The notes under the pieces: model-generated
The model's database searches: none
What the model saw: only the letters and a program-made list of their open reading frames with translations
What the model was told of the DNA's origin: nothing
Origin: a virus
DNA length: 33,791 nt
Strand: one strand, 5' to 3'
Virus record (IMG/VR): IMGVR_UViG_3300005613_000236
Location: 1 to 33,791 of that record
Translations under genes and position numbers: made by a program
In this document: positions 2,778 through 28,730 of the stretch, one piece after another
How positions within the stretch are numbered: position 1 is the first letter of the stretch
Layout of the letters: the number at the start of each line of letters is the position of its first letter

Positions 2778-2788
2778 GCTTCTCTCAT

Positions 2789-2941: not shown

Positions 2942-3063
2942 AAATTTTAAATAAAATTGAATCAAAACCAAAGAATACACGACAAGGTTCTGGTAAACAT
3001 ACTAAGTATGCAGATAGTAGTCGTAATAAAGCTCGAAAACCATATCGAGGACAAGGTAAATAA
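2938..3063 (+). CDS. Tiny basic protein, 41 aa (NTRQGSGKHTKY family)
   Basis: Starts in an ATGA overlap with the previous gene. The protein is strongly basic and contains KNTRQGSGKHTKY and KPYRGQGK, a signature I recall from tiny proteins in many T4-like cyanophages. It is probably unstructured alone and could bind nucleic acid, but no function is known. The terminator at 3071 follows within eight bases. Confidence 0.8.
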   Translation: MKILNKIESKPKNTRQGSGKHTKYADSSRNKARKPYRGQGK

Positions 3064-3070
3064 TTTAAAA

Positions 3071-3097
3071 GAGATGCAGCAATGCATCTCTTTTTTT
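3071..3097 (+). terminator. Rho-independent terminator
   Basis: A perfect 8-bp stem, GAGATGCA (3071-3078) and TGCATCTC (3083-3090), closes on a GCAA tetraloop and is followed by seven T (3091-3097). It separates the small-gene cassette from the structural region. Confidence 0.93.
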
Positions 3098-3125
3098 ATA
3101 ACTATTAAGAGAGATAAAGTTTCCT

Positions 3126-3791
3126 ATGACTTGTTTAGTTTGCAATTTACCTTCACAAGAAGTATGGGTACGAAAAGAATATCTTACAGATCATCAAAGT
3201 GGATGGGGTGAATTTGTAAAGGGAGTATGGGTAACTGCAAAATCAATGCCAGGACGTGCATTTTATTTTGAAACTTATTTACCAGAGTATGCAGCAATGT
3301 ATGATAAATTGCCTATCAGTGCCTTCTGTAGTCGCCCGGAAACCCCTTCTCCCGATCTTGACTTACCTAACCTCCAATTCTGGAATTGTATGGACTATGG
3401 AGTCGTGGCTGTACAGAAACAATTCATCGGTTCAATGAGTTATGAATTATATACAAGGGATTTTGGTACTCAAAAAGGAACTTATGTATGTACTCTAGAT
3501 AATTATCATCAAGATCCTGATGTGATTGATTATGCTACAAGTGAAAATCCAACAGAACATAAGTCTCATAACCTTATTGAGTTGACAAATGGACAATTTG
3601 CACTGTATCCAAACAATAGAATAAGGATATATGACAATAGTTTAACACCAAAAGATCCAAAAAAACCTGATTTTAAGGTATCAACACGATATTATCAGGT
3701 TGAAAATGGGTTTGAACATGATGGATTGGGGAATGAGGATGAATATTTTTGGAAAACATCAAAAGAAAGAGAAGAAAAGTCAAATAAATAA
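3126..3791 (+). CDS. Conserved cyanophage protein of unknown function, 221 aa
   Basis: A family I recall upstream of gp25 in cyanophages. Visible features are CLVC at residues 3-6, EVWVRKEYLTDHQ, MPGRAFYFETYLPEYAAMYDKLP, a central beta-rich part (GTYVCTLDNYH) and DEYFWKT near the end. A lone CxxC is too little to claim a zinc site. There is no signal peptide or membrane helix. Its stop codon lies in the late promoter of gp25, so it is read ahead of the baseplate genes. Function is unknown; position suggests a morphogenesis role. Confidence 0.8.
   Translation: MTCLVCNLPSQEVWVRKEYLTDHQSGWGEFVKGVWVTAKSMPGRAFYFETYLPEYAAMYDKLPISAFCSRPETPSPDLDLPNLQFWNCMDYGVVAVQKQFIGSMSYELYTRDFGTQKGTYVCTLDNYHQDPDVIDYATSENPTEHKSHNLIELTNGQFALYPNNRIRIYDNSLTPKDPKKPDFKVSTRYYQVENGFEHDGLGNEDEYFWKTSKEREEKSNK
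3783..3790 (+). promoter_or_regulatory. T4-type late promoter before gp25
   Basis: AATAAATA matches the T4 late promoter core TATAAATA except at the first base. It overlaps the TAA stop (3789-3791) of the 221-aa gene and lies 21 bases before the gp25 ATG. Confidence 0.65.
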
Positions 3792-3811
3792 AACAAATTC
3801 ATCACTTTTTC

Positions 3812-4213
3812 ATGCCAACGGAAAGGATAAGTAAGGGATTTAAAGATATTAGTATGTCATTTCAGATAAATCCAGTGAATGACGATTTAATTGCAGTAAA
3901 AAATGAAACTGCAATTGCAAGATCTCTTAGAAATCTGATATTTACTCAACCTGGAGAGCGATTTTTCAATCAAAATCTTGGTTCAAAAGTCTCAAGAACA
4001 CTTTTTGAGAATATGGATGATCTTACTGCAGTGGTTTTGAAAGATGAAATTGAAAATACAATCAATAATTACGAACCAAGAGTTGATTTGATTGGTGTTG
4101 ATGTGAATCCCGACTATGATAATAATGAATTTAATGTCACAATTCGATATTATATCGTCGGTATCGATGTATTACCGCAACAATTAACATTTGCACTACA
4201 GCCGACACGATAA
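3812..4213 (+). CDS. 25: Baseplate wedge protein gp25
   Basis: Matches T4 gp25 (132 aa there, 133 here) with the family signature FTQPGERFFNQNLG, LFENMDDLTA and NNYEPRVDLIGVDV. GPW/gp25 family members form part of the wedge near the tube and help start sheath assembly at the baseplate. The ATG at 3812 gives the expected length; there is no SD. Its TAA is immediately followed by the ATG of gp6, so the pair is coupled. gp25 contacts gp6 and gp53 in T4. The first 15 residues (MPTERISKGFKDISM) are a short phage-specific extension. Confidence 0.95.
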   Translation: MPTERISKGFKDISMSFQINPVNDDLIAVKNETAIARSLRNLIFTQPGERFFNQNLGSKVSRTLFENMDDLTAVVLKDEIENTINNYEPRVDLIGVDVNPDYDNNEFNVTIRYYIVGIDVLPQQLTFALQPTR

Positions 4214-6124
4214 ATGGCACTAGTAAACTTCACAAATTTAGATTTTGATCAAATAAAGACTTCGATTAAGGATTATCTTAGATCGAATTCAAATTTTACT
4301 GACTATGATTTTGAGGGATCGAACTTATCTACGATTATCGATGTTCTCGCATATAACACTTACATTTCTTCATACAATGCTAACATGGTTAGCAATGAAG
4401 TTTTTATTGATAGTGCAACATTAAGGGAAAATGTTGTTTCTCTTGCAAGAAATATTGGATATGTCCCAAGATCAAAAACAGCTGCAAGGGCAAACATATC
4501 ATTTTTTATCGATACTACAGGTTATAGTTTTTCTCCAATCACATTAACCTTAAAAAAAGGAACTATTTGTGTTTCTAGTGAAAGATTTGGTGAAAATAGT
4601 TTTAGTTTTACAGTTCCTGCAGACATTACTGTACCAGTTACGGAAGGAATTGCAATATTTGATAATGTTGATGTTTATGAGGGTACATTTTTAGTTAAAA
4701 ATTTTACCGTAAACGCAAATGATCCGAATCAAAAATTTATTTTAGATAATTCTGGTATTGATACGAGTAGTATTTCAGTTTTGGTTAGAAATAGTCAGAC
4801 AAGTACGGTAACTAGAAAGTTCACATTAGCAAGTAGTTTACTAGATGTGACTTCAGACTCAAAAGTTTTCTTTATTCAGGAGATTGAAGATCAAAGATAT
4901 GAATTAATTTTTGGTGATGGTATATTTGGAGCAGCATTAGAAGATTCAAATTACATTGAAGTTTCTTATATTACGACAAGTGGAGAATTAGCAAATGGAG
5001 TTTCTAATTTTTCATTTAATGGAAGAATAGTAGATAATAATGATCGCGTAATTACTGGTGGAGTTTCAGTTTTAACTGCAAATACTATTGCAAGAGGTGG
5101 ATCTGATATTGAATCCGTTGAATCGATCAAAAAATATGCTACGAGAATCTATGCTTCTCAAAATAGAGCAGTTACAGCATCCGATTATGAATCAATTGTT
5201 CCTACAATTTATCCAGAAACAGAATCAATTTCAGTTTTTGGTGGAGAAGAATTGAATCCACCTCAATATGGAAGAGTTTTTATTTCAATTAAGCCTATTA
5301 ATGGCGCATTTGTTTCTAGTCAAATTAAAGAAAATCTTAAACGCGATTTAAGAAAATATTCCGTGGCAGGAATTGTTCCAGAAATCTTAGATCTTAAGTA
5401 TCTTTATATCGAATACAATACAACAGTATATTACAATACAAATCTTACACCTTCTGCAAATTATTTACAAACTATTATTTCAAACAATATTACAAATTAT
5501 TCAGAATCGAGTGAATTGAACAAATATGGAGCACGATTTAAATATAGTAAATTTTTAAAAATTATTGATGACAGCAATACTGCAATAACTTCAAATATTA
5601 CTACAATCAATATCAGAAGAAATTTAAGTGCTAGATTAAACACTTTTGCAAATTATGAAATTTGTTTTGGAAATGAATTTTATTTAAAATGTCAAAGTGG
5701 ATATAATGTAAAATCGACTGGATTTAAAATTGATGGGGTTTCGGATACACTTTATCTTTCTGATATGCCAAATGAAGATGGCAAGACTGGTAGAATCTTT
5801 TACTTTAGACTTTTATCCTCTTCAGAACCTCAAATTGTAAGAGATTCTGTCGGAACAATTGACTATGAACGTGGTGAGATTATATTGTATTCTACAAACT
5901 TTTTATCAACAGAAAAATCTAGTAGCGGCCAGCCAATTATTGAAATTTCAACAACACCAAAATCAAATGACATCATAGGACTTCAAGATTTATATCTTCA
6001 ATTAGACACTTCTAGTAGTGTGTTAAATATGGTAGCAGATAACATTTCATCTGGGTTTGATATATCTGGATCATCCTACATCTTGACATCGAGTTATTCA
6101 AACGAAGATTACATAAGACAATAA
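4214..6124 (+). CDS. 6: Baseplate wedge protein gp6
   Basis: 636 aa, close to the 660 aa of T4 gp6. The N-terminus has LDFDQIKTSIKDYLRSNSN and DVLAYNTYISSYNANM, typical of gp6 of cyanophages. The baseplate-J-like core shows FGDG at about residues 233-236, then a segment ASDYESIVPTIYPETESISV (about 322 onward) before YGRVFISIKP. In T4, gp6 dimers link wedges into the ring around the hub and bind gp25, gp7 and gp53. The start directly abuts the gp25 stop. One base separates its stop from gp7. Confidence 0.93.
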   Translation: MALVNFTNLDFDQIKTSIKDYLRSNSNFTDYDFEGSNLSTIIDVLAYNTYISSYNANMVSNEVFIDSATLRENVVSLARNIGYVPRSKTAARANISFFIDTTGYSFSPITLTLKKGTICVSSERFGENSFSFTVPADITVPVTEGIAIFDNVDVYEGTFLVKNFTVNANDPNQKFILDNSGIDTSSISVLVRNSQTSTVTRKFTLASSLLDVTSDSKVFFIQEIEDQRYELIFGDGIFGAALEDSNYIEVSYITTSGELANGVSNFSFNGRIVDNNDRVITGGVSVLTANTIARGGSDIESVESIKKYATRIYASQNRAVTASDYESIVPTIYPETESISVFGGEELNPPQYGRVFISIKPINGAFVSSQIKENLKRDLRKYSVAGIVPEILDLKYLYIEYNTTVYYNTNLTPSANYLQTIISNNITNYSESSELNKYGARFKYSKFLKIIDDSNTAITSNITTINIRRNLSARLNTFANYEICFGNEFYLKCQSGYNVKSTGFKIDGVSDTLYLSDMPNEDGKTGRIFYFRLLSSSEPQIVRDSVGTIDYERGEIILYSTNFLSTEKSSSGQPIIEISTTPKSNDIIGLQDLYLQLDTSSSVLNMVADNISSGFDISGSSYILTSSYSNEDYIRQ

Positions 6125-6125
6125 A

Positions 6126-9100
6126 ATGGCAGAAACGAGAATTAAAATCAGTTCAATTCTGGAAAATCAATTACCAGATTTTGTAAGAGAAGAGTTTCCA
6201 CTTGTAGTAGAATTTTTAAAGCAATATTATATTGCCTTAGAGGGACAAGGATCTACTCTTGATATTCTTCAAAATATCGATCAATATATTAAGGTTGATT
6301 CTTTAGCAAATTTAACTACATCAACAACCCTATCATCTGACGTATCATTTGTAGATGATGAGATTTTTGTCGATTCGACATATGGTTTTCCATCAACTTA
6401 TGGACTTATTTTAATTGACAATGAAATAATCACTTACACTGGAAAAACTAATACTTCATTCACTGGATGTATTCGTGGTTTTAGTGGAGTTACTTCTTTT
6501 GATAATCCCAATAATCCAGATCAATTAGTATTTTCGGAATCTGAAATTTTAGATCATTCTTCTGGTTCGCAAGTTGAAAATTTAAGTGTTTTATTTCTTC
6601 AAGAATTTTTTAAAAAAGTAAAGACTCAAATTACTCCAGGATTTGAAGAAAGAGAATTTTATTCTGGTATAAATGAATCTCTTTTTATAAAACAGTCTAA
6701 AGATTTTTATTCATCAAAAGGAACCGAACAATCTTTTGAAATTCTTTTTAGAGTTCTTTTTGGACAAGATGTAGAAGTAATTAGGCCTCAAGATTATCTT
6801 ATCAAACCATCAGATGCTGACTATAGAATTAATAATGATCTTGTAGTTGAATCTGTTAGTGGGGATCTTGATCAGATTGTAAATAGAACCATTTATCAAG
6901 ATCAAACAGATTTTCTTAATTCTGCTAGAGGAACTGTAACTAAAGTTGAAAGAATTCAAAGAGGAGAAAAGGAATATTTTATTTTAAGTCTTGATTATGG
7001 ATATGACAGAGATATTGATGTTGATGGGACAATTTTTGGATCTTTTTCAATTCATCCAAGCACCCGAATAATTACACCAATAACTGATATAACTTCAACT
7101 ACAATTGATGTAGATTCAACTATTGGATTTCCATCTTCTGGAGAATTAGTTGTTGATTTGGAAAATGGATCAACAATAATAATAACTTATACGGATAAAA
7201 CAAATAATCAGTTTTTAAATTGCTCGGGAATATCGGATCAAATACCATCTGAATCTGAAATAAGATTAAACGCATACGCATATGCTAATATCGATGGTAA
7301 CTTGATTACTTTTAGAGTTACTGGTGTTTTGTCTGATATTTATCATGATAAACCAATTCCTGGATTTAGCATTAATGATCCAGTAACAATCACTTCGTTA
7401 GGAAAATATATTAAAGATGTAAAGTATAATAATTGGTTTTTCAATATTCAGGTTGAATACAATGTAAGATCTATAGATCTTTTAGACTCATCAGATGGAC
7501 AAACTTACGCAATTAATGTATATGATGATCACTCTTTTGTTATTGGAGATACAGTCTTAATTAAAAGAAATGGTGGATCTGATATAACTGCGTTTGTCAT
7601 TGGATATCGAAATGAAAAATCATTTACTGTAAGATCCGAATCTTTATTACCAACAAATGATAACTTGAAAGTTATCAAAAAACTTTCAAAAACTAACTTT
7701 AGTGAATATCCAGAATTAAACATCTATACTTCAAATGTACAGAATGTTTATTGTGATAAAGATGGTTTAAATTTATATGTAACCTCGCCATCACTACCTA
7801 CCTATCTCGATACAATTCTAAGTGTTGATGATGGATCTATTACATTTTCTGGTACATTTAGTGGAACTGATATTAATATTGGAAATCATTCTTTTTATAC
7901 TGGAGATGCTGTTTATTATAGATCTGGAGGATCTGATAATAATCTAGGAATTTCTGATGGAACATATTTTGTAAAAAGAGTAAGTGAAACTATTATTAAG
8001 ATTGCAAGAAGTAGAACAAATTTAAATAATGGTAATTACGTTTCTGTAAATGGTTCTATAACAGATAATCAATTTAGTTATCAAAAATTTGTAGATTCGG
8101 ATGGAACTCTTTTAAAAATAGAACCTCAAAAATTAGTAAGAGAAATATCAGACATAGTATCTCCATCTAGTGATACAACTACTATTCCAGGGCCTATAGG
8201 AATTTTAGTTAATGGTGTTGAAGTTCTCAATTATAAATCAAAAGATAATGTTTATTATGGCCCAATCACAGAAATCAATCCAACTGCTGCTGGATCTGGA
8301 TATGATATTTTAAATCCACCTCTTTTGCAGATAACAGATTCTATTGGATATGGTGCGACAGCACACTGCTCAGTTTTGGGAAACTTAGAAAGAATTGACA
8401 TCCTTGATTCTGGGTTTGATTATGTAAGTGATCCCGTTATTAGAATTACCGGAGGAAATGGATCTGACGCCAAAGCCATAGCAAATTTAGTATCGTTTGA
8501 ACACTCTGTTAGATTTAATGCAACTTCTGGAGTTAGCACATCAAATAACACTATTCAATTTATTGATTATCATAAATTTAGAGATTATGAGAAAGTAATA
8601 TACAATTCTGAAGGGCAGTCTGTTATTGGTGGGTTAGTTTCCGAATCGATTTATTATGTTTCTGTTCAAGATTCTTATACGATAAAATTACATAAAAATC
8701 TTGACGATTCAATTTTGGGAATTAATGAAATATCATTAACATCTCTTAGTACTGGTGTTCATTTATTCAAGTCTTCATCTTTAAAGAAAAAAATAGGATC
8801 TATTACGATCACAAATTCTGGTGTTGGATATCAATCCAAAAAAACCACCACAAGTGTTGCTGGTATTAATACATACTCAAATAGTATTAATATAAAAAAT
8901 CATGGGTACTTGAATGGAGAAATCATAACATATAATTGTACAGAATCTCCCATAATTGGACTTTCTACATCATTGACTTATTTTGTTACAAAATTAGATG
9001 ATGATAATTTTAAATTATCTTTAGTTGGAGTGGGAACTCAAGAAAAAGATTTTTATTATAAAACTAGACAATATATTAATTTACAAAATCAGGGATCTGG

Positions 9101-12100
9101 TATTCACATTTTTAATTATGAGCAACCTTCAGTCACAATTGATGGAATTATTGGTGTAAGTACATTAAGTGGGCAAGATTTTAACGCACAAATTCAACCA
9201 ATATTCAGAGGAGAAATTCAATCCGTTCATGTTGAAAATGGTGGCCAAAATTATGGTTCTGCAGAAATTTTAAATTTAAATCGACAACCATTATTTACTC
9301 CAATAAATGGATCGGGAGCTCAAATTGCTCCTGTGATTGAGAACAATAAGATTGTTGATGTTGTAGTTTTAAGTTCTGGTTCAAATTATAATTCAATACC
9401 AAATTTAATACTTGACAGTAGTACTGGTTCTGGTGCTGTTTTGACACCTGTTATTCAAAATGGACAATTAACTTCTGTTACTGTTATTAATGGTGGAATA
9501 GGATATACTCAATCTAATACAAGTATTAGAGTTGAATCTGCAGGTAGTGGTGCTGGATTTGAAGCAAAGATTAATCCTTGGAATATAAACTTAGTTGAAA
9601 GATTTGTCGAAAGTGGAAGGATAACAGACGATGATGGTTTTGTTTCATCTAGCATTGGAAAATTTGGACTTCAATATTTACATGCATATGCTCCAAGAAA
9701 TTTAAGAAAATCTGTTCTCGGCAGTGGGTTTAAAAATGGTGCCGTTTCATACAAACCAGATCTTAATATTTTAAATGGTAGAGAAATTAATTCAACATAT
9801 CACTCACCAATCATCGGATGGGCATATGATGGAAACCCAATATATGGCCCTTATGGTTATTCTTCAATAACAGGTGGATCAGTAAGATCCATGGTTTCTG
9901 GATATGAATTAAGATCTTTACCAGGAAGGCCTAGCACAAGCTTATTCCCATTAGGATTATTTGTCGAAGATTATGAGTTTGTTGGTGGTGGAGATCTTGA
10001 CGAGCATAATGGAAGATATTGTGTAACTCCAGAATATCCAAATGGTGTTTATGCTTATTTTATGACAATCAACAATGGATCTGTGGATTCCGTTGGAGTT
10101 TTTGAAAACTATAAAAAACCAGTATTTCCATATGTAATTGGAGACTCTTATAAGTCACAACCAAATGAGTTTAATTTTTTACAATCATCTAATCAAACAC
10201 AAATCAATATAAACGAAAAACTTTGGTTCAGAAATACATATCCATATAATTTATCCAGTCCAAATAGTCAGTATAACTATATTTTACAACCAAATAAAAT
10301 AGTTAAACAAAATTCCAATTCAATTTATCAGAGTTCTATTGTAAGATCTGTAGTAGAGGGAAGAATAAGTTCTATTGGAATTTCTAGCGGCGGAAATAAC
10401 TATCAAGTAAATGATTATATTGAGTTTGAAGTAAATGAACTTGATGCGAAAAAACCAGCAGCAAAAGTATCATCAGTTTCTGGAAAGAATGTAATATCAG
10501 TTAGTGCAGCAACATCGAGTTTTACTGGCGTTGAGTTTTATCCTCGGGGAGAAAGTGATAAGTATGTTGCATTTACAACGTCTCCCCATAATTTTAATAA
10601 TCTTGATTTAGTTGATGTAAGTACAACTTATGAATATCAGCAAGAATCTTCGATAATTGTAAGAACTAATTCTCTTTCATTGTCTTCCGGCATTGGATCT
10701 GATGGTGACACCGGTGAAGTCGCATATCTTGAAGTTTATGGAATATTATCTCCAAATTTAATTAGAGAAAATGATATCTATCAGATTGGAGAAGAACAAG
10801 TAAAAATATTGAACGTAGACTCAGACTCTTCAAGAATTCGTGTTCTAAGATCACAAAATGGAACTTCTGGAGTTTCTACTTATCCTGCAGGAACAATTTT
10901 AAATGAATTATCAAGAAAATTTGTATTGAATTTTCAGTCCGAAAATGATTATAATCAAAGAATTAATAAAGAAATTTACTTTAACCCTGCAGAAACTCTA
11001 GGCATAGGAAGTGTTTCTGGAGTTGGAATAGGAACAACAATATTTTTCGCAAATCCTGGAGTTGGAATAACTCAAATCTTTATTCCAACTAAAACACTTT
11101 ATTTAAAAAATCATGAGTTAAGCACTGGTGATCAGCTAATTTATAACTCTAATGGTGGAACTCAAGTTTCAGTTTCTACTGATGGATCTTCATCATTCCA
11201 ACTTTCAAATAACTCTATTCTTTATGCTATTAAATTGTCAAGTGATTTAATTGGCATATCTACCGTAAAAGTTGGATTGGGATCAACTGGATCTATTGTT
11301 GGAGTCGGATCAACAGTAGCATCTAAAAACACACTTTATTTGACAAATGTTGGAACTGGCGATACTCATAGTTTTGTAACAGATTATTCTAATATTTTAG
11401 TTGGAGAAGTATTTAAAAATGAAGTTACTGTATCTACTGCCACAACTCATGGATTGCAAACTGGCGACTATGTAGACATCAATGTAATTTCTGGATTATC
11501 GACAACTATTGTTGTTGAATATGATGATTATAATCGAAGAATGATTATAAATCCAAGATCATTTGTATCTGGGGATGTTAATATTATTGACAACTCAATT
11601 ACTATTTTAAATCATGGATTAAAAACAGGACAAAAAGTAATCCACACTTCCACATCTCCATCAGGTGGACTTATAGATGAAAAAATTTATTATGTTGTGG
11701 CTGTAGACTCCAATACTATTAAATTATCAAATAGTAAATATTTTTCAACTAGAAGCGAAAGAGATCTTGTTGGTATCACATCCGCATCTTCTGGAAGAAT
11801 TTTACCAATAAATCCAAAAATTGAATTTACATATAGCGACTCAATAATTTTTGATTTGTCGAGTTCGACATTATCATTTGCAAATAATTCGGTTTTATAT
11901 TCAGCATTTGATCTTAATTTCTATACCGACTCCAATTTTAATAATAAATTCTTTTTCAGCGATTCTAATAATGTAGAAATTGTTAAGTCTGGAATAGTTG
12001 GTGTTGATACCACAGCATCTTTAACCTTTAGAATTGTCGAGTCAACCCCAAAAAATATTTTCTATCGCTTAGATCCAACAAATTTGGATATTATTCCAGA

Positions 12101-15100
12101 TGTTAAACTGGAGGTGTATGAAGATGAAGAGGTAGATTTCAATAATCAAATTGAAATTGTAGAAAGTGGATATAATGGATATTATTCTATAGTTGGACTT
12201 GGAACAACAACCTTTAAATATAATACACAAAAACTTCCACAAAATTCTGTTTACAATCAAAATAATGCAATTATATCATATTCTACAAATTCATTATCAG
12301 CTTTTGGCCCAATAAATCAAATTGATATTACTTCATTTGGAAAGAATTTATCTTCAGTTCCTGGAATTTCTTCCATCTACACAGAGTATGGAAAAAATGC
12401 AATTTTGATTCCAAATACTGAGGATATTGGATCTGTAATTAAAACTGAAATTGTAGATATTGGATTTGATTATTCCTCAGATTTGAGTTTGAGGCCAACA
12501 GCATCTTTACCTTTAATACTGGAAATTGAAACTCAATCCTCATTTGATACTATTGGAGTATCTTCTGTTGGTAGGGGTTACTATATCTCACCAGATTTAA
12601 TTGTTTTGGATGGACTTTCCCAAGACTTAATTACTGATGTTCAATTAAAATATGAAATTGGCAATTCCTTTGTAGAGATTGTTAAAAACACTAAGGGTTT
12701 GAATAATTTAAATCCAATTATAATTCCAGTTAACAATGTAAATGGTGTTGATATTGATTCAATCACATACAATGATTCTACGAAAGATGTTATAGTAACC
12801 CTAGGAAGTTCTTTTAGTAATGCAGCAGATTTTCCCTTTGAAATTGGTGATAGGGTATTAATAGAAAATGTAAGCGTTGGTGTAGGATCAACTGGAAAGG
12901 GTTACAATTCCGAAAATTATGGATATTCTTTATTTACAATTACAGGAACTGATCCCAATATTGGCGGAATTGGAGCTACTGTTTCTTATAGTCTTTCTGA
13001 AAAAATTGCGGATGGTGAAGTTCCAGGGACATTTGATCCGATTAATTCTGCCGGAAGAATTATTCCAGAAAAAGATTTTCCAATATTTGATATAACCCTA
13101 AGGAAAAATGAATTTTTTAAAGATGAAATTGTTACGAGTAATACTGGATATGGAAGAGTATCGGATTGGGATAATACTAATGAAATTTTAAAAGTATCTA
13201 CTAGAAATAATGGATTTTTAGTTGGTGAAATTGTTTTTGGCAATTCTTCTGCAACAACAGGAAAAATTCAAAAAGTTTTAGAAGACAATTTCATTTATAC
13301 CGTATCTTCATCTTCTGTTACGAACAAAGGTTGGCAAACTGAAACTGGATTTTTAAATAATAAGTTCCAAAGAATTCATGATAGTGATTACTATCAATAT
13401 TTTTCATATGCATTGAGATCACAAGTATCTTTAGAAAAATGGGATGATGCTGTAGGATCTCTCAATCATACTGTGGGATTTAAAAGATTTAGTGACTTGA
13501 TAATTGAGTCCAGTCCAACCATATCTGGTATAAGTACAGATCAAAATGATGGGGATTTTACTGGAATTGCAGATCTTTCAAGATTTATTGATTTGAATTG
13601 TGTGAATGATTTTGATCTTGCATTTGAAAACAATATTACTATTGACAATAAAATAAAATCCGATGAAATAATTTTTAACTCAAGAGTTTTGCAAGATTAT
13701 ATCGAATCGGTTGGTAATAGAGTTTTAATAATGGATGATATAAGTGACAAATTTAGCAGCAATCCTAGGCCAACAAGATTTAGTGTTGTTGATAGATTTA
13801 GTTTAGATTCAAGATCTTTAAAATATATAACTTTTGTAGAGGATTCTAGATTTACAAATCAAAGGCAAATTCTTCTTGTAACTCTCATTCATGATGGAAC
13901 AAATGGATATTTAAATCAATATGGAAGATCTGAGACTGTTTATGATATGGGATCTTTTGACTTCTCAATATCAGGAACTGAAGGACAATTATTATTCTAC
14001 CCAACAAGAAGTTTAATTAATGATTTTAATGTTGAATTAATTTCTTATAATATTGAAAATACTATCGCCTCTATAGGATCTACAAACCTTGGAGATTCTA
14101 TTTTTGTAGGATCGAGTACGACTAGTATACCTGCATCTACTTCTTCTGCAACCACTGTTGTTGGAATTGCATCTACATATAGATCATCGAAAGTTTTGGT
14201 TCAAATTGGTGCTACTGATGGATCATATTTTGAAATGGATGAATTAACAATTATACATGATGGTTCTGATATAATTGTTCAAGAGTATGGACAATTAAAT
14301 ACTGCAAATTTAGAATCATATTCGACTTCTGGATTTGGAACGTATTATGCATATTATTCAGGTTCTGATATAAACATTGACATAACTCCAGACTCAACTA
14401 CTGCAGTTCAATATGACATCAATACCATTAGAATTTCAATAGCAAGTACAGAATCAACTGGAATTGGAACTATTACCCTTAACAATAGTTCCTTAAAATC
14501 TTCACATACTTCTATTGCTGCTACAACTTCCCCAGGAATAACTACAATTTCTTCATACAGTTCTGCATATGAAGCAGCATATTACGTTGTTAGCGTTGAA
14601 GATACTACAAATGGGGATTATCAAGTTTCTGAAGTTATAGTTGTTAGTAATAGCGATGTTTATATTTCAGAATTTGGAATTATTAGAACCAACTCCTCTC
14701 TTGGATCTATTGGAGCAACTGTCAATGGATTGGGTGAAATAGATCTTCAATTTACCCCCATAGCTAATTCAGATATTGAAGTTAAGGTTTTCCAAAATTC
14801 AATTGGATTAACTTCTGAGGATGTGGAAAATGACATAATTGATTTTGATAATGCATTTATTAAAACTGGTTATGGATATTATGAAGGAGCTGAGATTGAT
14901 GTTGTTAGAAGTTTTAATTTAACTCATAAACAAAAACCAATATTTGAACGATATTTTGATGGAAGTTCTTCTACCATTGTCGATATAACTGAAGATACAA
15001 TTAAAATCCCAGAACATTTCTTTGTTACTGGTGAAGAAGTTAGATATACACACTCTGGTGCTGGATCAACATCAGCAATTGGAATTGCATCAACTTCTGT

Positions 15101-18100
15101 TCCTGGAATTGGAGTCACGGATAAACTTCCATCAACTCTTTACATTGTAAAAGAAAATGAATTGAATGTTAAAGTTGCAGTTTCAGCATCAGATGCATTA
15201 AGATCAACTCCAATTACGCTAGATTTAACTTCCGTTGGAATTGGAACTTCTCATAGATTTGTGTCAACTAATCAAAATTCAAAGGTTTTGGTTTCTATTG
15301 ATAATGTAATACAGTCACCTCTTGTCTCTACGGCTATCACAACCTTATTGGCAGATCCGATTGCAATAACAGATACGATAATTACTTTCTCTGGAATTAC
15401 GTCATTCTTTGGAGGTGATTTAATTAAGATTAATAATGAAATTATGAGAATTAATTCTGTTGGTTTTGGAACAACTAACGGTATTTTTGTTCAACGTGCT
15501 TGGGCTGGAACTGGATTTGCTACCCATGCCGACGCCTCTCTCGTTACAAAAATAAATGGAAACTATAATATCAACGATAATGTTATTACATTTATTACTG
15601 CTCCATACGGCCCAACTCCGGTAAGTTCTATAACCAATCCTCCAGATAGTCGTGATTGGGTTGGAATTGAAACACATTCAACATTTAGTGGAAGATCTTT
15701 CATTAGATCTGGAGTTGAAAATTCAAGCGAAGATCAATATGATTCAAATTACATATTTAATGATATCTCTTCTGGATTTGATGGATTAAACAACACATTT
15801 AGATTACTTTCAGACGGAAATAATGTTACTGGAATATCAACTGGAAATTCAATCATTTTAATTAATGATGTGTTCCAAGGCCCAGAAAGATCTGGAATTT
15901 CTGTAAATATTATTGGCGATTATGATCTATCAGAAAATTCTGGAATCACATCAATAACATTCACAGGAAATATATCTTCTACTTCATATGATGTTAACAC
16001 TTCAAGTATTCCTCGTGGTGGAATGATAGTTTCGGTAGGATCTTCTGAAGGTTTTGGATATCAACCTCTTGTTTCAGCAGGTGGAACAGCTATAGTTTCT
16101 GGACTAGGAACAATATCTTCAATTAGCATTGGAAACAGTGGATCTGGTTATAGATCGGGAATTCAAACAGTTGTAAATGTTGGAGTTGCAACTTCAAGTA
16201 CAGGAATTCCAAATGTTGAATTTATCGGAACTGCTGCAATTAGTGGGGGACATATTGTAAGTATTGCAATTACAAATCCAGGAACTGGTTACACATCAAC
16301 AAATCCACCAATAGTTATAATTGATGATCCACTTTCTTATTCTGATATTCCTTTAGTTTACAGTTCTTCTTCCGTTGGATTTGGAACAGCTGCTGTTGCA
16401 AATATTGTTGTAGGACAGGGATCAAGTGTAATTTCTTTTGAAATTACAAATTCTGGATATGGATATGGACAAGGTGATGTTCTTACTTTTGATATTGGTG
16501 GAATATCTGGTATCCCTACAGATCCTACAGCAGCATTTAGAGAGTTTCAAATTACAGTAGATAAAACAATAAGTGACAAATTCTCTGGATGGGTTATAGG
16601 AGATCTGCAAGTAATTGATCCAATTGATGATTTAGTGGATGGAAGTAGAGTTAAGTTTCCAATTAGAATCGATGGGCAACAGACAACAATTAGATCTAGA
16701 AAAGGATCAAATATCGAAGTTGTTGCAAATTTATTAGTATTTGTGAATGATATTCTTCAAGTTCCAAACCAATCATATACATTTGAAGGTGGAAGTATTA
16801 TTACATTCTCAGAACCACTGAAGGTAGGAGATACTACAAAAATTCTATTTTACAGAGGAACTGGATCTATTGATACTATTGATGTTGATGTTTTAGAGAC
16901 AGTTAAAATTGGTGATACTTTAAGACTTAATAGTGATGATCAATTCCTTAAGGAAGATCCTAGACTAGTTCTAAACATTCAATCTACTGATGTAGTAGAT
17001 ACAAACACATATAGTGGCCCTGGAATCACCCCAGATGCAAACTTATTAAGGCCTGTCATATGGTGTAGACAAACAGAAGATAAAATTATTAATGGACAAC
17101 AAGTTGGTAAAGATAGAGAAATATATGAACCTTTAATTTATCCAACTACAAATATTATTCAAAGCGTTGGGATTTCTTCATCTGAAATTTTTGTAGAAAG
17201 TGTAAAAACTTTCTTTGACAGTTTTAATGAAAATTCAACATCACAAAATCAAATTATTTTAGTTTCTCAAGATTCTTTAATTGGTGCATCTGCAACAGCA
17301 ATTGTTTCTACTGGAGGAACAATATCTTCAATTGTAATATCCGATGGTGGTGTTGGGTATTCTACTTCTCCAAGTGTAACTATTTCAAATCCTGTTGGAC
17401 TTGGGACAACATTGAGAGCAAGTGCAACATCTACAATTTCTATTGGAGGAACAGTTTCTTCTATAACTATTTCAAATCCTGGAAGTGGTTATACAACAAC
17501 AAATCCACCTCAAGTTTTAATTGAATCACCTGCAATAAACTATGAAATTATTGAAGAATCTGTCTATGAAGGTGATTTTGGATTTATATCTGGAATACAA
17601 ACAACTTCAGTCGGAGTTGCTTCGACGGGACTTGTATTTGACTTGGCAATTCCTCTCGATTCTTTCTTAAGAGATTCACAAATTAATCCGGTTGGAGTTG
17701 CTTCAACAGGAATAAGTGGAATTCAAACTGGTTATTATTTTGTAGTTTATAATTCTAACGTTGGAAATGGAGTTACTTCATTATATCAGAATGATTCTGT
17801 TTTAGGAATTGGATCAACCTTTATAGACAATGTTTATGAAGTCGCATCCGTTTCTGTTGGACAAACAGATGTTGCTGGTATTGGATTTACATATGTTGCT
17901 AAAGTAACGGTTAGTGTTTCTGATTATAATGGACTCTCTGGACTTGGATATAGTGATTTTTATGGCGAATATAGTTGGGGAAGAATTAGTTCTCTTTCTA
18001 GAACTTCTCCAAAAACATTTAATTATTACAATGAAGGAATTTCTGGAATAACTACTTCAGCAATTGTTAAAAGAATTAATCCACTTAAATTCATAAATTA

Positions 18101-18110
18101 CCTCACATAA
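6126..18110 (+). CDS. 7: Giant gp7-like baseplate wedge protein with YHYH domain and repeat modules, 3994 aa
   Basis: Position after gp6 and the motif DFYSSKGTEQSFEILFRVLF (193-212) match the C-terminal part of T4 gp7 (DFYSTKGIEAS...). The N-terminus (LPDFVREEFPLVVEFLKQYY) also resembles gp7 near its end. The N-terminal two thirds of T4 gp7 has no visible counterpart; instead about 3700 residues follow. These hold VDS-GFPS beta modules (about 75-125 and 325-380), at least six modules with H-x-TGD-x-V-x-Y and YYV (from about 580 on), GxGY repeats, a YHYH domain (T1224-F1312, GWAYDGNPIYGPYGY), three tandem HDG modules (about 2580-2890) and a C-terminal VFVNDILQVP module. The reading frame is uninterrupted. 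Predicted to extend from the wedge to the outer baseplate; the surface role is inferred. Confidence 0.88.
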   Translation: MAETRIKISSILENQLPDFVREEFPLVVEFLKQYYIALEGQGSTLDILQNIDQYIKVDSLANLTTSTTLSSDVSFVDDEIFVDSTYGFPSTYGLILIDNEIITYTGKTNTSFTGCIRGFSGVTSFDNPNNPDQLVFSESEILDHSSGSQVENLSVLFLQEFFKKVKTQITPGFEEREFYSGINESLFIKQSKDFYSSKGTEQSFEILFRVLFGQDVEVIRPQDYLIKPSDADYRINNDLVVESVSGDLDQIVNRTIYQDQTDFLNSARGTVTKVERIQRGEKEYFILSLDYGYDRDIDVDGTIFGSFSIHPSTRIITPITDITSTTIDVDSTIGFPSSGELVVDLENGSTIIITYTDKTNNQFLNCSGISDQIPSESEIRLNAYAYANIDGNLITFRVTGVLSDIYHDKPIPGFSINDPVTITSLGKYIKDVKYNNWFFNIQVEYNVRSIDLLDSSDGQTYAINVYDDHSFVIGDTVLIKRNGGSDITAFVIGYRNEKSFTVRSESLLPTNDNLKVIKKLSKTNFSEYPELNIYTSNVQNVYCDKDGLNLYVTSPSLPTYLDTILSVDDGSITFSGTFSGTDINIGNHSFYTGDAVYYRSGGSDNNLGISDGTYFVKRVSETIIKIARSRTNLNNGNYVSVNGSITDNQFSYQKFVDSDGTLLKIEPQKLVREISDIVSPSSDTTTIPGPIGILVNGVEVLNYKSKDNVYYGPITEINPTAAGSGYDILNPPLLQITDSIGYGATAHCSVLGNLERIDILDSGFDYVSDPVIRITGGNGSDAKAIANLVSFEHSVRFNATSGVSTSNNTIQFIDYHKFRDYEKVIYNSEGQSVIGGLVSESIYYVSVQDSYTIKLHKNLDDSILGINEISLTSLSTGVHLFKSSSLKKKIGSITITNSGVGYQSKKTTTSVAGINTYSNSINIKNHGYLNGEIITYNCTESPIIGLSTSLTYFVTKLDDDNFKLSLVGVGTQEKDFYYKTRQYINLQNQGSGIHIFNYEQPSVTIDGIIGVSTLSGQDFNAQIQPIFRGEIQSVHVENGGQNYGSAEILNLNRQPLFTPINGSGAQIAPVIENNKIVDVVVLSSGSNYNSIPNLILDSSTGSGAVLTPVIQNGQLTSVTVINGGIGYTQSNTSIRVESAGSGAGFEAKINPWNINLVERFVESGRITDDDGFVSSSIGKFGLQYLHAYAPRNLRKSVLGSGFKNGAVSYKPDLNILNGREINSTYHSPIIGWAYDGNPIYGPYGYSSITGGSVRSMVSGYELRSLPGRPSTSLFPLGLFVEDYEFVGGGDLDEHNGRYCVTPEYPNGVYAYFMTINNGSVDSVGVFENYKKPVFPYVIGDSYKSQPNEFNFLQSSNQTQININEKLWFRNTYPYNLSSPNSQYNYILQPNKIVKQNSNSIYQSSIVRSVVEGRISSIGISSGGNNYQVNDYIEFEVNELDAKKPAAKVSSVSGKNVISVSAATSSFTGVEFYPRGESDKYVAFTTSPHNFNNLDLVDVSTTYEYQQESSIIVRTNSLSLSSGIGSDGDTGEVAYLEVYGILSPNLIRENDIYQIGEEQVKILNVDSDSSRIRVLRSQNGTSGVSTYPAGTILNELSRKFVLNFQSENDYNQRINKEIYFNPAETLGIGSVSGVGIGTTIFFANPGVGITQIFIPTKTLYLKNHELSTGDQLIYNSNGGTQVSVSTDGSSSFQLSNNSILYAIKLSSDLIGISTVKVGLGSTGSIVGVGSTVASKNTLYLTNVGTGDTHSFVTDYSNILVGEVFKNEVTVSTATTHGLQTGDYVDINVISGLSTTIVVEYDDYNRRMIINPRSFVSGDVNIIDNSITILNHGLKTGQKVIHTSTSPSGGLIDEKIYYVVAVDSNTIKLSNSKYFSTRSERDLVGITSASSGRILPINPKIEFTYSDSIIFDLSSSTLSFANNSVLYSAFDLNFYTDSNFNNKFFFSDSNNVEIVKSGIVGVDTTASLTFRIVESTPKNIFYRLDPTNLDIIPDVKLEVYEDEEVDFNNQIEIVESGYNGYYSIVGLGTTTFKYNTQKLPQNSVYNQNNAIISYSTNSLSAFGPINQIDITSFGKNLSSVPGISSIYTEYGKNAILIPNTEDIGSVIKTEIVDIGFDYSSDLSLRPTASLPLILEIETQSSFDTIGVSSVGRGYYISPDLIVLDGLSQDLITDVQLKYEIGNSFVEIVKNTKGLNNLNPIIIPVNNVNGVDIDSITYNDSTKDVIVTLGSSFSNAADFPFEIGDRVLIENVSVGVGSTGKGYNSENYGYSLFTITGTDPNIGGIGATVSYSLSEKIADGEVPGTFDPINSAGRIIPEKDFPIFDITLRKNEFFKDEIVTSNTGYGRVSDWDNTNEILKVSTRNNGFLVGEIVFGNSSATTGKIQKVLEDNFIYTVSSSSVTNKGWQTETGFLNNKFQRIHDSDYYQYFSYALRSQVSLEKWDDAVGSLNHTVGFKRFSDLIIESSPTISGISTDQNDGDFTGIADLSRFIDLNCVNDFDLAFENNITIDNKIKSDEIIFNSRVLQDYIESVGNRVLIMDDISDKFSSNPRPTRFSVVDRFSLDSRSLKYITFVEDSRFTNQRQILLVTLIHDGTNGYLNQYGRSETVYDMGSFDFSISGTEGQLLFYPTRSLINDFNVELISYNIENTIASIGSTNLGDSIFVGSSTTSIPASTSSATTVVGIASTYRSSKVLVQIGATDGSYFEMDELTIIHDGSDIIVQEYGQLNTANLESYSTSGFGTYYAYYSGSDINIDITPDSTTAVQYDINTIRISIASTESTGIGTITLNNSSLKSSHTSIAATTSPGITTISSYSSAYEAAYYVVSVEDTTNGDYQVSEVIVVSNSDVYISEFGIIRTNSSLGSIGATVNGLGEIDLQFTPIANSDIEVKVFQNSIGLTSEDVENDIIDFDNAFIKTGYGYYEGAEIDVVRSFNLTHKQKPIFERYFDGSSSTIVDITEDTIKIPEHFFVTGEEVRYTHSGAGSTSAIGIASTSVPGIGVTDKLPSTLYIVKENELNVKVAVSASDALRSTPITLDLTSVGIGTSHRFVSTNQNSKVLVSIDNVIQSPLVSTAITTLLADPIAITDTIITFSGITSFFGGDLIKINNEIMRINSVGFGTTNGIFVQRAWAGTGFATHADASLVTKINGNYNINDNVITFITAPYGPTPVSSITNPPDSRDWVGIETHSTFSGRSFIRSGVENSSEDQYDSNYIFNDISSGFDGLNNTFRLLSDGNNVTGISTGNSIILINDVFQGPERSGISVNIIGDYDLSENSGITSITFTGNISSTSYDVNTSSIPRGGMIVSVGSSEGFGYQPLVSAGGTAIVSGLGTISSISIGNSGSGYRSGIQTVVNVGVATSSTGIPNVEFIGTAAISGGHIVSIAITNPGTGYTSTNPPIVIIDDPLSYSDIPLVYSSSSVGFGTAAVANIVVGQGSSVISFEITNSGYGYGQGDVLTFDIGGISGIPTDPTAAFREFQITVDKTISDKFSGWVIGDLQVIDPIDDLVDGSRVKFPIRIDGQQTTIRSRKGSNIEVVANLLVFVNDILQVPNQSYTFEGGSIITFSEPLKVGDTTKILFYRGTGSIDTIDVDVLETVKIGDTLRLNSDDQFLKEDPRLVLNIQSTDVVDTNTYSGPGITPDANLLRPVIWCRQTEDKIINGQQVGKDREIYEPLIYPTTNIIQSVGISSSEIFVESVKTFFDSFNENSTSQNQIILVSQDSLIGASATAIVSTGGTISSIVISDGGVGYSTSPSVTISNPVGLGTTLRASATSTISIGGTVSSITISNPGSGYTTTNPPQVLIESPAINYEIIEESVYEGDFGFISGIQTTSVGVASTGLVFDLAIPLDSFLRDSQINPVGVASTGISGIQTGYYFVVYNSNVGNGVTSLYQNDSVLGIGSTFIDNVYEVASVSVGQTDVAGIGFTYVAKVTVSVSDYNGLSGLGYSDFYGEYSWGRISSLSRTSPKTFNYYNEGISGITTSAIVKRINPLKFINYLT
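9795..10061 (+). other. YHYH domain inside the gp7-like protein
   Basis: Residues 1224-1312 read TYHSPIIGWAYDGNPIYGPY at the start and DEHNGRYCVTPEYPNGVYAY at the end, the hallmark of the YHYH family. The domain occurs in bacterial secreted proteins and in cyanophage structural proteins; its function is not known to me. The key Y, H, D, G and P positions are kept. Confidence 0.85.
16107..17530 (+). repeat. Nearly identical segments within the gp7-like gene
   Basis: GGAACAATATCTTCAATT occurs at 16107-16124 and 17316-17333. A second pair at 16287-16309 and 17487-17509 differs in two of 23 bases. The two pairs have similar internal spacing (180 and 171 bases), indicating a duplicated block of about 200 bases encoding GxGY repeats. 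Confidence 0.6.
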
Positions 18111-18130: not shown

Positions 18131-19684
18131 ATGTCTGCAATAATTACTGATCAACTTCGTATATTAAATGCTGAAAATTTTGTTTCAGCAGCAACTTCCA
18201 GTGCAAATTCATATTATTCATTTGTCGGGCTTCCAAATGCAACCGACTATGATTCTGACTGGAATACAACTCCTCCTGCACCAAAAGATAATTTTAATCA
18301 AGAGAATGATTATTGGGATACAATGATTGCCCTCAAAAAAATTAATGACGGTGATGTTAAGCAAGTTGTAAGAAAAGTAACATGGATAACCGGAACTACT
18401 TATGACATGTATCGTCATGATATAAGTAGAACTAATTTATCAAAACCATCAGAATCTACTAGTTTATATTCTGCAAATTATTATGTTTTAAATAGTGACT
18501 ATAGGGTTTACATTTGTTTATATAATGGTTCAACTCCAGAAAATCCATCTGGGGTTCCTTCATTGGATGAACCAACTTTTACAGATTTGGAACCAAGAAC
18601 AGCTGGAACAAGTGGAGATGGATATATTTGGAAATATTTGTATACGATTAAACCAAGCGACATTGTAAAGTTTGATTCTGTAAATTATATGCCAGTCCCA
18701 AGAAATTGGGAAACAAACATTGACGTATCTGCAGTAAGAGATAATGCTGCAACATCTGGACAATTAAAAATTGTTACTATTACAAATAGAGGAGTTGGAC
18801 TTGGAACCGCTAATAGAACTTATTCTAGAGTTCCAATTAAAGGAGATGGTACTGGAGCAGAAGCAACAATTGTAATCAATAGCAACTCTGAAGTAGATAC
18901 TATTACGGTTTCAAAGGGAGGTTCTGGATATACTTATGGAAGTGTTGATTTAGAATCCGGAAATGTTCCAACTGGAACTACAAGGCCAACATTTGATGTA
19001 ATAATTCCCCCACAAGGAGGACATGGTGCGGATATTTATCGTGAACTTGGAGCATATAACGTATTAATTTACTCCAGAATTGAAAATGATACTGAAAATC
19101 CAGATTTTATTACTGGAAATCAAATTGCAAGAGTTGGAATAATTGAAAATCCTCAGACATATAATTCATCAAATCTTCTAATCGAAGATAAGGCAAGTGC
19201 AGTTTATGCATTGAAATTAATTGGTGCTGGTTATAGTTCTGCAGTTTTTGCTGGCGATAGTAGAGTAACACAAACGATTGGTATTGGATCTACAGCTGTT
19301 GGAAGAGTAGTATCTTATGATCAAACAACAGGAATATTAAAGTATTGGCAAGATCGTTCTCTTGTTGGATTTAATACTAATGGAACGCAAAATAACAATC
19401 CAACCTATGGATTTAATTTAAATAGATTTACTGCATCTCCAACAACTGGAGGTTCTGTGACAATTTCTGGTGGTAGTGTATCTTTAGGAATTGATACCTC
19501 ATTCACTGGTATAACTACCGTAATAAATAGTAGGACATACAACCTTGGACAATCGTTTATTAGCGGTTTAGCAAATCCAGAAGTTAAAAAATATTCTGGA
19601 AATATAATTTATGTTGACAATAGGCCTTCTATTACTAGATCGTCTAACCAAAAAGAAGATATTAAAGTCATTTTGCAATTTTAA
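18131..19684 (+). CDS. 8: Baseplate wedge protein gp8
   Basis: Follows gp7 as in T4. Conserved signatures are TDYDSDWNTTPPAPKDN near the start, GDGYIWKYLYTI in the middle and GNIIYVDNRPSITRSSNQKE at the C-terminus, which matches the C-terminus of T4 gp8 (GEMIYMENRPPI...). At 517 aa it is much longer than T4 gp8 (334 aa); the surplus is in the middle and contains GxGY modules (ITNRGVGLG, VSKGGSGYTYG). In T4, gp8 is a dimer bound to the gp6-gp7 wedge. Expressed from the tandem late promoter upstream; the next gene starts six bases after its stop. Confidence 0.93.
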   Translation: MSAIITDQLRILNAENFVSAATSSANSYYSFVGLPNATDYDSDWNTTPPAPKDNFNQENDYWDTMIALKKINDGDVKQVVRKVTWITGTTYDMYRHDISRTNLSKPSESTSLYSANYYVLNSDYRVYICLYNGSTPENPSGVPSLDEPTFTDLEPRTAGTSGDGYIWKYLYTIKPSDIVKFDSVNYMPVPRNWETNIDVSAVRDNAATSGQLKIVTITNRGVGLGTANRTYSRVPIKGDGTGAEATIVINSNSEVDTITVSKGGSGYTYGSVDLESGNVPTGTTRPTFDVIIPPQGGHGADIYRELGAYNVLIYSRIENDTENPDFITGNQIARVGIIENPQTYNSSNLLIEDKASAVYALKLIGAGYSSAVFAGDSRVTQTIGIGSTAVGRVVSYDQTTGILKYWQDRSLVGFNTNGTQNNNPTYGFNLNRFTASPTTGGSVTISGGSVSLGIDTSFTGITTVINSRTYNLGQSFISGLANPEVKKYSGNIIYVDNRPSITRSSNQKEDIKVILQF

Positions 19685-19690
19685 AGAACC

Positions 19691-22600
19691 ATGCCCAAAG
19701 GAATAAATCTCAACGTTTCTCCTTATTATGATGATTATAATCCCAAAAAGGGTTATTATCAGGTTCTTTTTAAACCAGGGTATCCTGTTCAGGCAAGAGA
19801 ATTGACAACATTGCAGTCAATGCTGCAAAATCAAGTTGAACAATTTGGTTCTCATGTATTTAAAGAAGGTGCAAAAGTCACTGGTGGAGAAGTAAGTTAT
19901 AATAATCAACTAGAAACAGTAATTCTTGAAAATGAATATTTTGGAGTAAGTCCAGAGTATTATCTACAGTTTATTTCAGGTAAAGTAATTCGAGGACAAA
20001 CTAGTAACATTAGAGCAAGAATTGAGTTTTATATAAATGGCAGTTTGTCAATTATTGGAAAGCCAACGATTTATGTTACATATTTAAGTTCAAGTTCTTC
20101 TGATGATACTAGAAGTTCATTTTTGAGTGGCGAAACACTTATAGTTGAAGAAACAGTTTCTTTAGAAGAAGAATTTGCAAACGTTGGATCACAGGCATTG
20201 CAATCTGGCGAAGGATTTGCGATTGTAAATTCAACGACTTTAGCATCAGCTGTTTACATGAACTCTGGTGTTTATTTTATTAGAGGTAGATTCGTAAGTG
20301 TTTTTAATGATATTCTGCTATTAGATCAATATTCCAACGTTCCTTCATACAAGGTTGGGTTAAGAATTTTTGAAGATATTGTAAACTCATATGAAGATCC
20401 CACATTGAATGATAATGCTCAGGGATTTTCCAACTATGCTGCTCCTGGTGCTGATAGACTGCAAATATTTGCAAAACTTGATAAAATTGACATTAACGAT
20501 ACAAATATTGACAATTTTATCCTCTTAAAAGAAATTAGAGATGGTGTAGATTTAACTCAAACTAGAACAACTGAATATAGCACATTATCTCAAGAATTTG
20601 CGAGAAGAACATTTGACGAATCTGGTGATTATTATGTAAAAATCCCAAACATTTCTGCGAAAGAAACTTTAAATAATCTTTTGGGAAATGATGGAATATT
20701 TAGAGAAAATCAAATTACTTATAATAATAATGTTCCCAGTGAAAGTTTAGGGACTTATGTCATCTCACCGATGAAAGCTTATGTGAGAGGATATGAAATT
20801 TCTACGAATGGAACAACATTTATAGACTTTCAAAAACCAAGAACCACAAAGTTTTTGCAAAATCAAGAAGTTAATTATTTAACTGGCCCAACATATACCT
20901 TAAATCGAGTATATGGAACTCCAATTCTTGGATTGAGCACTTCATATACTGTAAGTTTGAGAAATGAAAGGGTTGGAACTTCTCAAACTACTGCTCCAGG
21001 AGAAGAAATCGGATTAGCAAGAGTTTATGATTTTGCTTTAGAATCTGGATCATACGATACAGCAAATGCAAATTTAAATCAATGGGATATTGCACTATAT
21101 GATGTTCAAACATATACAAACATAGTACTTAATGAACCAATTACACTTTCTACTCCTACTCATATAAAAGGAAAATCTAGTGGGGCAGTAGGATTTTTAA
21201 GATATGATTCAACTAATTCTGGAATAATTACTGCATATAATACTTCCGGAAAATTTTCTGTTGGAGAAAAATTAATTTTTGATGGAATTGAAAATACTAG
21301 AGTTTCTACAGCAATAACAGAAAAGTCAACTAATGATATTAAATCAATATATGGTATTGTAGGATCCGCATATACTTTTACCGGTGACGTAAAGCAATCT
21401 ACATTAACAGATGTTGGAACTGTTAATATTTCAGCAGCTTCTGGAGGAATTAGTACAGTCACTTCTCCAAACACGATATTCACAGGAATTGCAACAGTTG
21501 GAAATCTGGTATCGTTTACAGAACCAGGATTGACTGTTAACACTTTTTCAAAAATTGAGTCTGTATCTCAAAATGCCATTACAATTTCTGGAGTTACAAC
21601 TGTAACTGGAGTTTGTGAAGGTGCTTTACCATCTTCAAGTATTAATCCAACAGATTTTAAAATTCTAACAAGTAGATTACAATCTTCTTCCGATAATACT
21701 TTATATACAGTTTTACCAAAAAGATTTATTTCATCTATAGATTTAACAGATTCAAATTTAGTCATTAGAAAGCAGTTTAATGTAACTATATCTTCAAATT
21801 CTACTGGAACTATTACTGCTGGGGATAATGAAACCTTTTTACCATTTGATGAAGAAAGATATGCTCTTATAAGAGAAGATGGAACTACCGAAGAACTTAC
21901 ACAAGATAAGTTTGTTTTTTCGCTGGGATCTAAAGAACTTACAATTAGTGGACTTGGTTCAAATGGAAATGCAAAATTAATTGCAACATTAAGAAAGATA
22001 AGTGTAAAATCGAAAATTAAAAATAGGAATAAGGTACAAACAATAGTAGTAGATAAATCTAAGTATGAAGGTTCTGGTATTGGAAATACAACTTTAAACG
22101 ATGGCTTGACATATGGAAATTATGCATATGGTACTAGGGTTCAAGATCAAGATATTTGTTTACTTTTCCCAGATGTAACAAAACTTTATGGTGTATTTGA
22201 GTCTAAAAATACATCAGATCCTGAATTACCAAATATCATTTTCACTTCTTTAGATGGGCCAACAAACAAGGTTGGAGATCTTTTAGTTGGAGATACTTTT
22301 ATTGGACAATCCAGCAATGCTGTTGGCATATATGTTGAGCGAGTAAATGATCTAAAAATTAATTATGTAAACTTAAATACTACTTCATTTGTGGAAGGTG
22401 AAACTGTAGTATTTAAAGAATCTGGTATATCTGCTGTTATTGGTGCGATTGACATTGGTGATAATAATATAACTTCCAATTATACTCTGACAGAAGGATT
22501 AAAAAATTCTATCTATGATTATTCCAAAGTAATTAGAAAAACAACATCTAAAGAACCGACTAAAAAACTCAAAATTGTATTTGAATATGCAAGTTTCTTG

Positions 22601-28729: not shown

Positions 28730-28730
28730 T

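Follow-up and report, generated by a model that had tools for sequence, protein, structure and literature searches.

Gene content of the locus

The window, which is the whole stretch of 33,791 nucleotides that was analysed, is a 33.8-kb virus fragment that carries baseplate wedge genes in the order gp25-gp6-gp7-gp8, the same order as in cyanophages according to Pfam and PHROGs matches (Table 1). The gp7 frame occupies 35% of the window and has no internal stop, and at the base composition of the window a stop-free run of 3994 codons is expected by chance with a probability of about 10^-146. Differences between gp7 and its relative L008 are about 0.34, 0.22 and 0.49 at codon positions 1, 2 and 3, respectively, and third positions also take most of the differences from five relatives with 55-59% amino-acid identity. 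The open frame and the third-position bias therefore identify gp7 as a gene under purifying selection, and the preliminary description of this DNA, which had reported an intact 12-kb frame covering one third of the window and maintained by selection, was right on both points. No tRNA was found in the window, NCBIfam gave no match to gp7, and DNA-level searches of public phages returned only short similarities. The region upstream of the baseplate genes contains a member of the ferredoxin-annotated family phrog_3704 (3126-3791), which adjoins them and has 80% DNA identity to S-SKS1, and a member of phrog_1574 with weak glycosyltransferase matches (2010-2777).

Table 1. Segments of gp7 and neighbouring wedge genes in the window
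Feature	Positions	Strand	gp7 residues	Remarks
gp25 wedge protein	3812..4213	+		PF04965, phrog_261
gp6 wedge protein, gp7 partner	4214..6124	+		PF21379, phrog_219
gp7, baseplate wedge subunit	6126..18110	+		3994 aa, ATG to TAA, 433 kDa, pI 4.5; ORF call and phrog_2885
Core helices 1-2	6144..6305	+	7-60	Equivalent to T4 ~643-690 through intermediate phages; hhalign
Small beta-barrel insert 1, EIITY type	6312..6581	+	63-152	hhalign gap, repeat HMM, AF2 strands
Core helices 3-4 with DFYSSKGT motif, and T4 domain V	6582..7334	+	153-403	hhalign, model match
Insertion between domain V and closing block	7335..13325	+	404-2400	~2000 aa; HGL/FCCH-like, GSGY and barrel domains plus YHYH
YHYH-type domain region	9558..10160	+	1145-1345	Pfam match 1221-1316
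Closing block DSDYYQYFSYALRS...HTVGF	13326..13520	+	2401-2465	Equivalent to T4 848-888; hhalign, HMM
C-terminal module	13809..18107	+	2562-3994	~1430 aa; separate gene in four related contigs, fused in frame here
gp8 wedge protein	18131..19684	+		PF09215, phrog_438

The gp7 family in cyanophages

T4-like cyanophages are abundant marine viruses whose largest virion proteins are mostly unexplained. Residues 1-3360 of the window gp7 are covered by a match to phrog_2885, a baseplate wedge subunit family of 4179 positions (E=0, 3644 bits). The gene belongs to a T4-like cyanophage and is orthologous to T4 gp7, and its product falls within a known family, the giant gp7 of these phages, of which it is an ordinary member. 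The full-length relatives in the isolates Bellamy, S-SM2 and P-SSM2 carry the annotation gp7 or baseplate wedge initiator, while in phage B23 the gp7 sequence is divided between an ORF of 2845 aa and one of 1081 aa. Residues 1-458, used as a tblastn query, retrieved 540 phage records, mostly cyanophages, and at least 593 gp7-encoding stretches were found in viral contigs, with a single frame of more than 3600 residues in about 30 of the contigs examined. The contigs L007, L023 and L044 interrupt the frame, each at another position and with hardly any or no sequence missing, and these breaks are probably assembly errors.

The gene between gp6 and gp8 varies widely in size, encoding 503 aa in IME-SM1, 631 in OC, 767 in Cr30, 1007 in phiM12 and 1032 in T4, and, among cyanophages, 1937 aa in S-CREM2, 3048 in S-PM2, 4314 in S-CAM7 and 6619 in S-SZBM1, with 6376 codons in Syn33 and 6395 in S-RIM8. 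The 3994 aa of the window protein are thus mid-range for cyanophage gp7s (1937-6619 aa) and its size is unexceptional; a giant cyanophage gp7 is in itself unsurprising to specialists. It has been stated that T4 gp7 is absent from cyanophages and pelagimyophages, which would have VrlC in its stead (PMC7029224). The core and closing-block profiles described below contradict this statement, both in cyanophages and in the pelagiphage HTVC008M (L169; NC_020484, 33450-35885), which has core and closing block in a 1016-codon open frame. The gp7 of a published A-1(L) structure was considered as a counterpart and rejected, being a neck protein.

N-terminal core and domain V

Residues 1-403 contain a helical core and the equivalent of T4 domain V; the DFY-S-KG core together with domain V corresponds to T4 ~724-843. 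Sequence searches matched the gp7 chain of 9f4a (phmmer, E 0.006) and T4 gp7 in 5hx2/5iv5 (profile search, E 2e-5), and profile-profile comparison with hhalign aligned window residues 184-290 with T4 gp7 724-814 (E 1.2e-11), window residues 1-289 with residues 1-188 of phiM12, Cr30, OC and IME-SM1 (E 3e-23), and this group of phages with T4 643-930 (E 2e-13). The gp7 match proposed earlier for residues 1-260, late in T4 gp7, is thereby recovered. The N-terminal helical pair (T4 ~643-690, PF21428), for which no match was seen between window and T4 directly, is linked to window residues 1-62 via the phiM12 group, and the core HMM matches the gp7 of IME-SM1, OC, Cr30 and phiM12 at residues 1-65.

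The AlphaFold model of residues 1-1195 has a pLDDT of 82 overall and of 40-60 in the N-terminal helices, possibly reflecting a helical bundle that depends on its partners. Model residues 232-403 superpose on T4 gp7 (5iv5) 763-843 with a Z of 8.4 and an rmsd of 2.1 A over 80 residues, and on a Klebsiella phage gp7 with a Z of 8.6 (2.0 A, 76 residues). The first small barrel (residues 63-152) is missing from alphaproteobacterial-phage gp7 and from the small gp7s in hhalign comparisons. A second EIITY-type barrel, at residues 310-382, lies inside domain V and resembles a tail-tube chain of phage Mystique (Z 10.5, 1.7 A, 72 residues) and a tail-protein barrel of phage Chi (Z ~10).

T4 gp7 residues 1 to ~640 have no counterpart in the window by phmmer, profile search and hhalign, in agreement with the preliminary description, and are also missing from the other non-T4-type gp7s compared. 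The core stands at the N-terminus in all compared lineages but the T4 type, and the 640-residue part is therefore peculiar to T4-type phages; it looks as if the T4 lineage had gained it, and the cyanophage need not have lost it. It is no defining part of the wider gp7 family. The idea that a T4 wedge subunit became a giant presupposes a T4 ancestor, and it does not fit non-T4-type cores that start at the N-terminus.

Closing block

A second match to the small gp7s was found by BLAST at window residues 2403-2462, and hhalign relates this closing block to the C-terminal block of the small gp7s with E 2.4e-15. The block HMM places it at residues 379-441 of 503 in IME-SM1, 671-732 of 767 in Cr30, 930-990 of 1007 in phiM12, 220-281 of 631 in OC and 1863-1925 of 1937 in S-CREM2. 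An HMM built without T4-type sequences matched all six T4-type gp7s tested, each with an E between 3e-4 and 1e-3 and always at the position of T4 848-888, and matched no reversed sequence. Two profiles independently align the block to this place in hhalign (E 9e-4 and 8e-4), its sole match in the whole T4 genome is in gene 7 (85640-85741, E 0.003), and one of 2000 shuffles of T4 gp7 reached the T4 score. The T4 match, weak by itself (E ~1e-3), is consistent in position and order.

About 5 residues separate domain V from the block in T4, and residues 404-2400 do so in the window. The preliminary description had held that a single region resembles T4 and that about 3700 residues were added after it. 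That account does not hold, since likeness to T4 extends to residues 1-62 (through intermediates), up to residue 403 (by structure) and to residues 2401-2465, and since about 2000 of the added residues are inserted inside gp7 and some of the remainder belongs to a separate module that is fused on.

Domains of the insertion and the tail

The insertion measures 1687-2155 aa in all 47 contigs that have core and block in one ORF. The insertion and the tail are each built from strings of small beta domains; the insertion also contains a partial YHYH domain. The HGL repeat has about 80 aa and occurs in six copies; its fold, in the model of residues 791-886, is similar to the FCCH domain of the ubiquitin E1 enzyme Uba1 (Z 9.1, 2.5 A, 77 residues), and the E1 FCCH-like family PF16190 scores 22.4 bits, below its curated cut-off of 29.5. 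The GSGY repeat, of about 37 aa, is found at residues 712-785, 889-924, 1029-1147, 3328-3465 and 3731-3813, with a few weak copies elsewhere. EIITY barrels were located by repeat HMM at 72-125, 320-371 and 3078-3132, and by fold at 1512-1597, where the fold resembles a baseplate chain of phage JBD30 (Z 9.3).

HMMER searches of insertion and tail against PDB sequences gave no meaningful match, and short-chain dehydrogenases that appeared at E 0.01-0.08 were judged to be chance. Foldseek with two 1190-aa models returned no match at E < 0.001; this result is expected for multi-domain arrays, and the single-domain matches were therefore taken from VIA-align. Modules of the same types occur in other proteins of the window, namely the GSGY module in the neck protein gp14 (28722-30110, residues 207-373) and the EIITY module in the sheath terminator gp15 (30150-31148, residues 250-301) and in ORF834 (24978-27482). 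Virion proteins of the window phage thus draw on a common kit of small domains.

The YHYH family PF14240 matches gp7 with E 1.2e-25 and 91 bits (cut-off 25) at model positions 87-183 of 193 only, and was found in the gp7 of all 11 cyanophages searched and of none of five other T4-like phages. The GGH...YHYH histidine motif is absent from gp7 residues 1145-1316. Because the match covers the second half only and this motif is missing, enzyme activity of the gp7 copy is not to be assumed. No PDB structure match fell in the YHYH region, in a search made weak by the long (~1190-aa) models. In S-SZBM1, the YHYH domain of a 536-codon neighbour of gp7 (L153, 148164-148748) is complete and includes the GGH...YHYH motif. 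This complete domain contains both YHYH and YAYF, and the reading of 'YAYF' at residue 1309 of the window gp7 as a degraded YHYH motif was dropped.

C-terminal module

The window protein continues for 1529 residues past the closing block. In four related contigs (L120, L124, L136 and L145) gp7 ends with a clean TAA at the equivalent of residues ~2550-2556, about 92-95 residues past the block, and a new ATG follows 7-11 bases on, opening a gene equivalent to residues 2562-3994. The tail, being a separate gene in these contigs, is therefore a separable module. B23 is split further downstream, at residues ~2898/2909, and block and tail are fused in 72 other ORFs. Short gp7s that end soon past the block favour fusion over fission as the earlier event. 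No description of the second block, of the separable tail or of the insertion site within gp7 was found in the open-access papers searched.

Proposed role of the giant gp7

The most probable reading, to which a probability of about 0.7 is given, is that gp7 keeps a conserved two-part scaffold in the wedge, and that its arrays and fused tail lie in the outer baseplate and aid host contact. The retained scaffold consists of core and domain V (residues 1-403, with two interrupting barrels) and the closing block (2401-2465), and would bind gp6 and gp8 and keep the wedge assembled. Beta domains totalling about 2000 residues are inserted between domain V and the block and would form a loop, a position that implies that both ends of the array are tethered to the wedge, and the module of ~1430 residues, a separate gene in some relatives, is fused at the C-terminus. 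The arrays most likely build the outer baseplate and would help host contact or hold receptor-binding proteins, at the place where T4 has gp9-gp12 and the N-terminal extension of gp7. No gp9-gp12 were detected between gp8 and gp13 in the window, and this interval instead has two ORFs of phrog_358, from which we infer that the gp7 arrays and the phrog_358 protein together form the outer baseplate. The anchoring of gp7 in the wedge is well supported, and an external position of its giant part is plausible; a copy number of six, an outward location and a host-contact role of the arrays are what we infer further.

The two phrog_358 ORFs (19691-24937 and 24978-27482) encode one VrlC-like protein, covering family positions 1-1423 and 1421-2055. 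In relatives the junction holds unrelated sequence, which is Pro-rich, endosialidase-chaperone-like or, in S-SM2, only 78 bp long, and it directly precedes a conserved 'DPLAQSF'. The junction resembles a place at which receptor-binding parts are exchanged.

Homologues of gp7 are virion proteins in two cyanophages: S-SZBM1_208 (6619 aa) was detected by mass spectrometry of purified virions with 71 peptides (PMC9146016), and S-CREM2 ORF122 (1937 aa) with 91 unique peptides (PMC10665884). During coexistence with the host, a non-synonymous mutation, one of many, arose in the S-PM2 homologue S-PM2d081 (3048 aa; PMC9910659). Mutation and virion presence fit a host-contact role and do not prove host contact; a literature search found no structure or binding assay of a giant cyanophage gp7.

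Alternatively, the added domains might have no contact with the host and serve only to brace the wedge or to bind tail fibres, an explanation with an appreciable, though lesser, chance of being correct. The three repeat types occur in neck and tail proteins as well, with GSGY in gp14 and EIITY in gp15 and ORF834, which suggests general virion building blocks, and some of the matched folds are generic barrels. The presence of YHYH in the gp7 of all 11 cyanophages tested and of none of the five other phages, and the mutation of the S-PM2 homologue under host pressure, argue in the other direction. It is improbable that gp7 is a polyprotein from which the tail (2562-3994) is cleaved to act on its own: the separate tail ORF of the four contigs and the B23 split near residue 2900 indicate that covalent linkage is dispensable in some phages, but neither a protease site nor other evidence of a protease was found, and the single frame for block and tail in the 72 ORFs speaks for one chain.

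YHYH is a predicted metal-dependent hydrolase, with a Zn site of three His and one Asp predicted in jumbo phages (PMC7824862). An active enzyme in gp7 that opens the cell wall would agree with that prediction and with residues H1226 and D1235, invariant in 63 relatives, and H1186, nearly so; it is nevertheless quite doubtful, given the partial span of the gp7 copy and its lack of the histidine motif. An assembly artefact joining separate genes, to which the broken frames of L007, L023 and L044 could have pointed, is refuted by the same single ORF in the isolates Bellamy, S-SM2 and P-SSM2 and in tens of independent contigs.

For a scaffold anchored in the wedge with externally placed arrays, a further step may be put forward tentatively. 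The site between domain V and closing block could be a fixed insertion site for host-facing structures of ~30 to ~2700 residues, and in cyanophages a looped, doubly tethered array might replace the gp9-gp12 outer baseplate and help to sense the host and trigger contraction. Since both T4 anchors are kept and the additional mass is placed between them and behind the second, the segment borders are testable in constructs and in the fitting of cryo-EM maps.

Comparison with known gp7 proteins

T4 gp7 is a monomer with six copies per tail, located in the outer wedge, where it touches gp6, gp8, gp9 and gp10 and shifts as the baseplate changes shape (PMC3004832). T4 gp7 (1032 aa; 5IV5) and the window protein have in common the helical core, domain V and the closing block (T4 ~643-888), whereas neither the insert of ~2000 aa nor the two barrels, the YHYH domain or the long tail occurs in T4. 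T4 domain VI (PF21456) has no Pfam match in the window gp7.

The small gp7s of Stenotrophomonas phage IME-SM1, Caulobacter phage Cr30, Ochrobactrum phage OC and Sinorhizobium phage phiM12 have an N-terminal core followed by the closing block, as in the window. They differ in a core-to-block insert of only ~30-740 aa, in the absence of YHYH and in the lack of a long tail, except for OC, which has ~350 aa.

The closest known systems are the Kyanoviridae phages Bellamy, whose gp7 of 4067 aa has 46% identity over 3992 aa, and S-SM2, whose gp7 of 4156 aa has 43% identity. Both are collinear with the window protein throughout and equal it in gene order, YHYH domain and place of the closing block, sequence divergence and small changes in length being the sole differences. 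The P-SSM2 gp7 (5195 aa) has 29% and 34% identity in two stretches. The giant gp7s of Syn33, S-RIM8 and S-SZBM1 have the same two-part scaffold and YHYH, but carry about 500 extra aa at the site of the first barrel, which splits the core HMM match at ~110/612, and their tails are longer than that of the window gp7.
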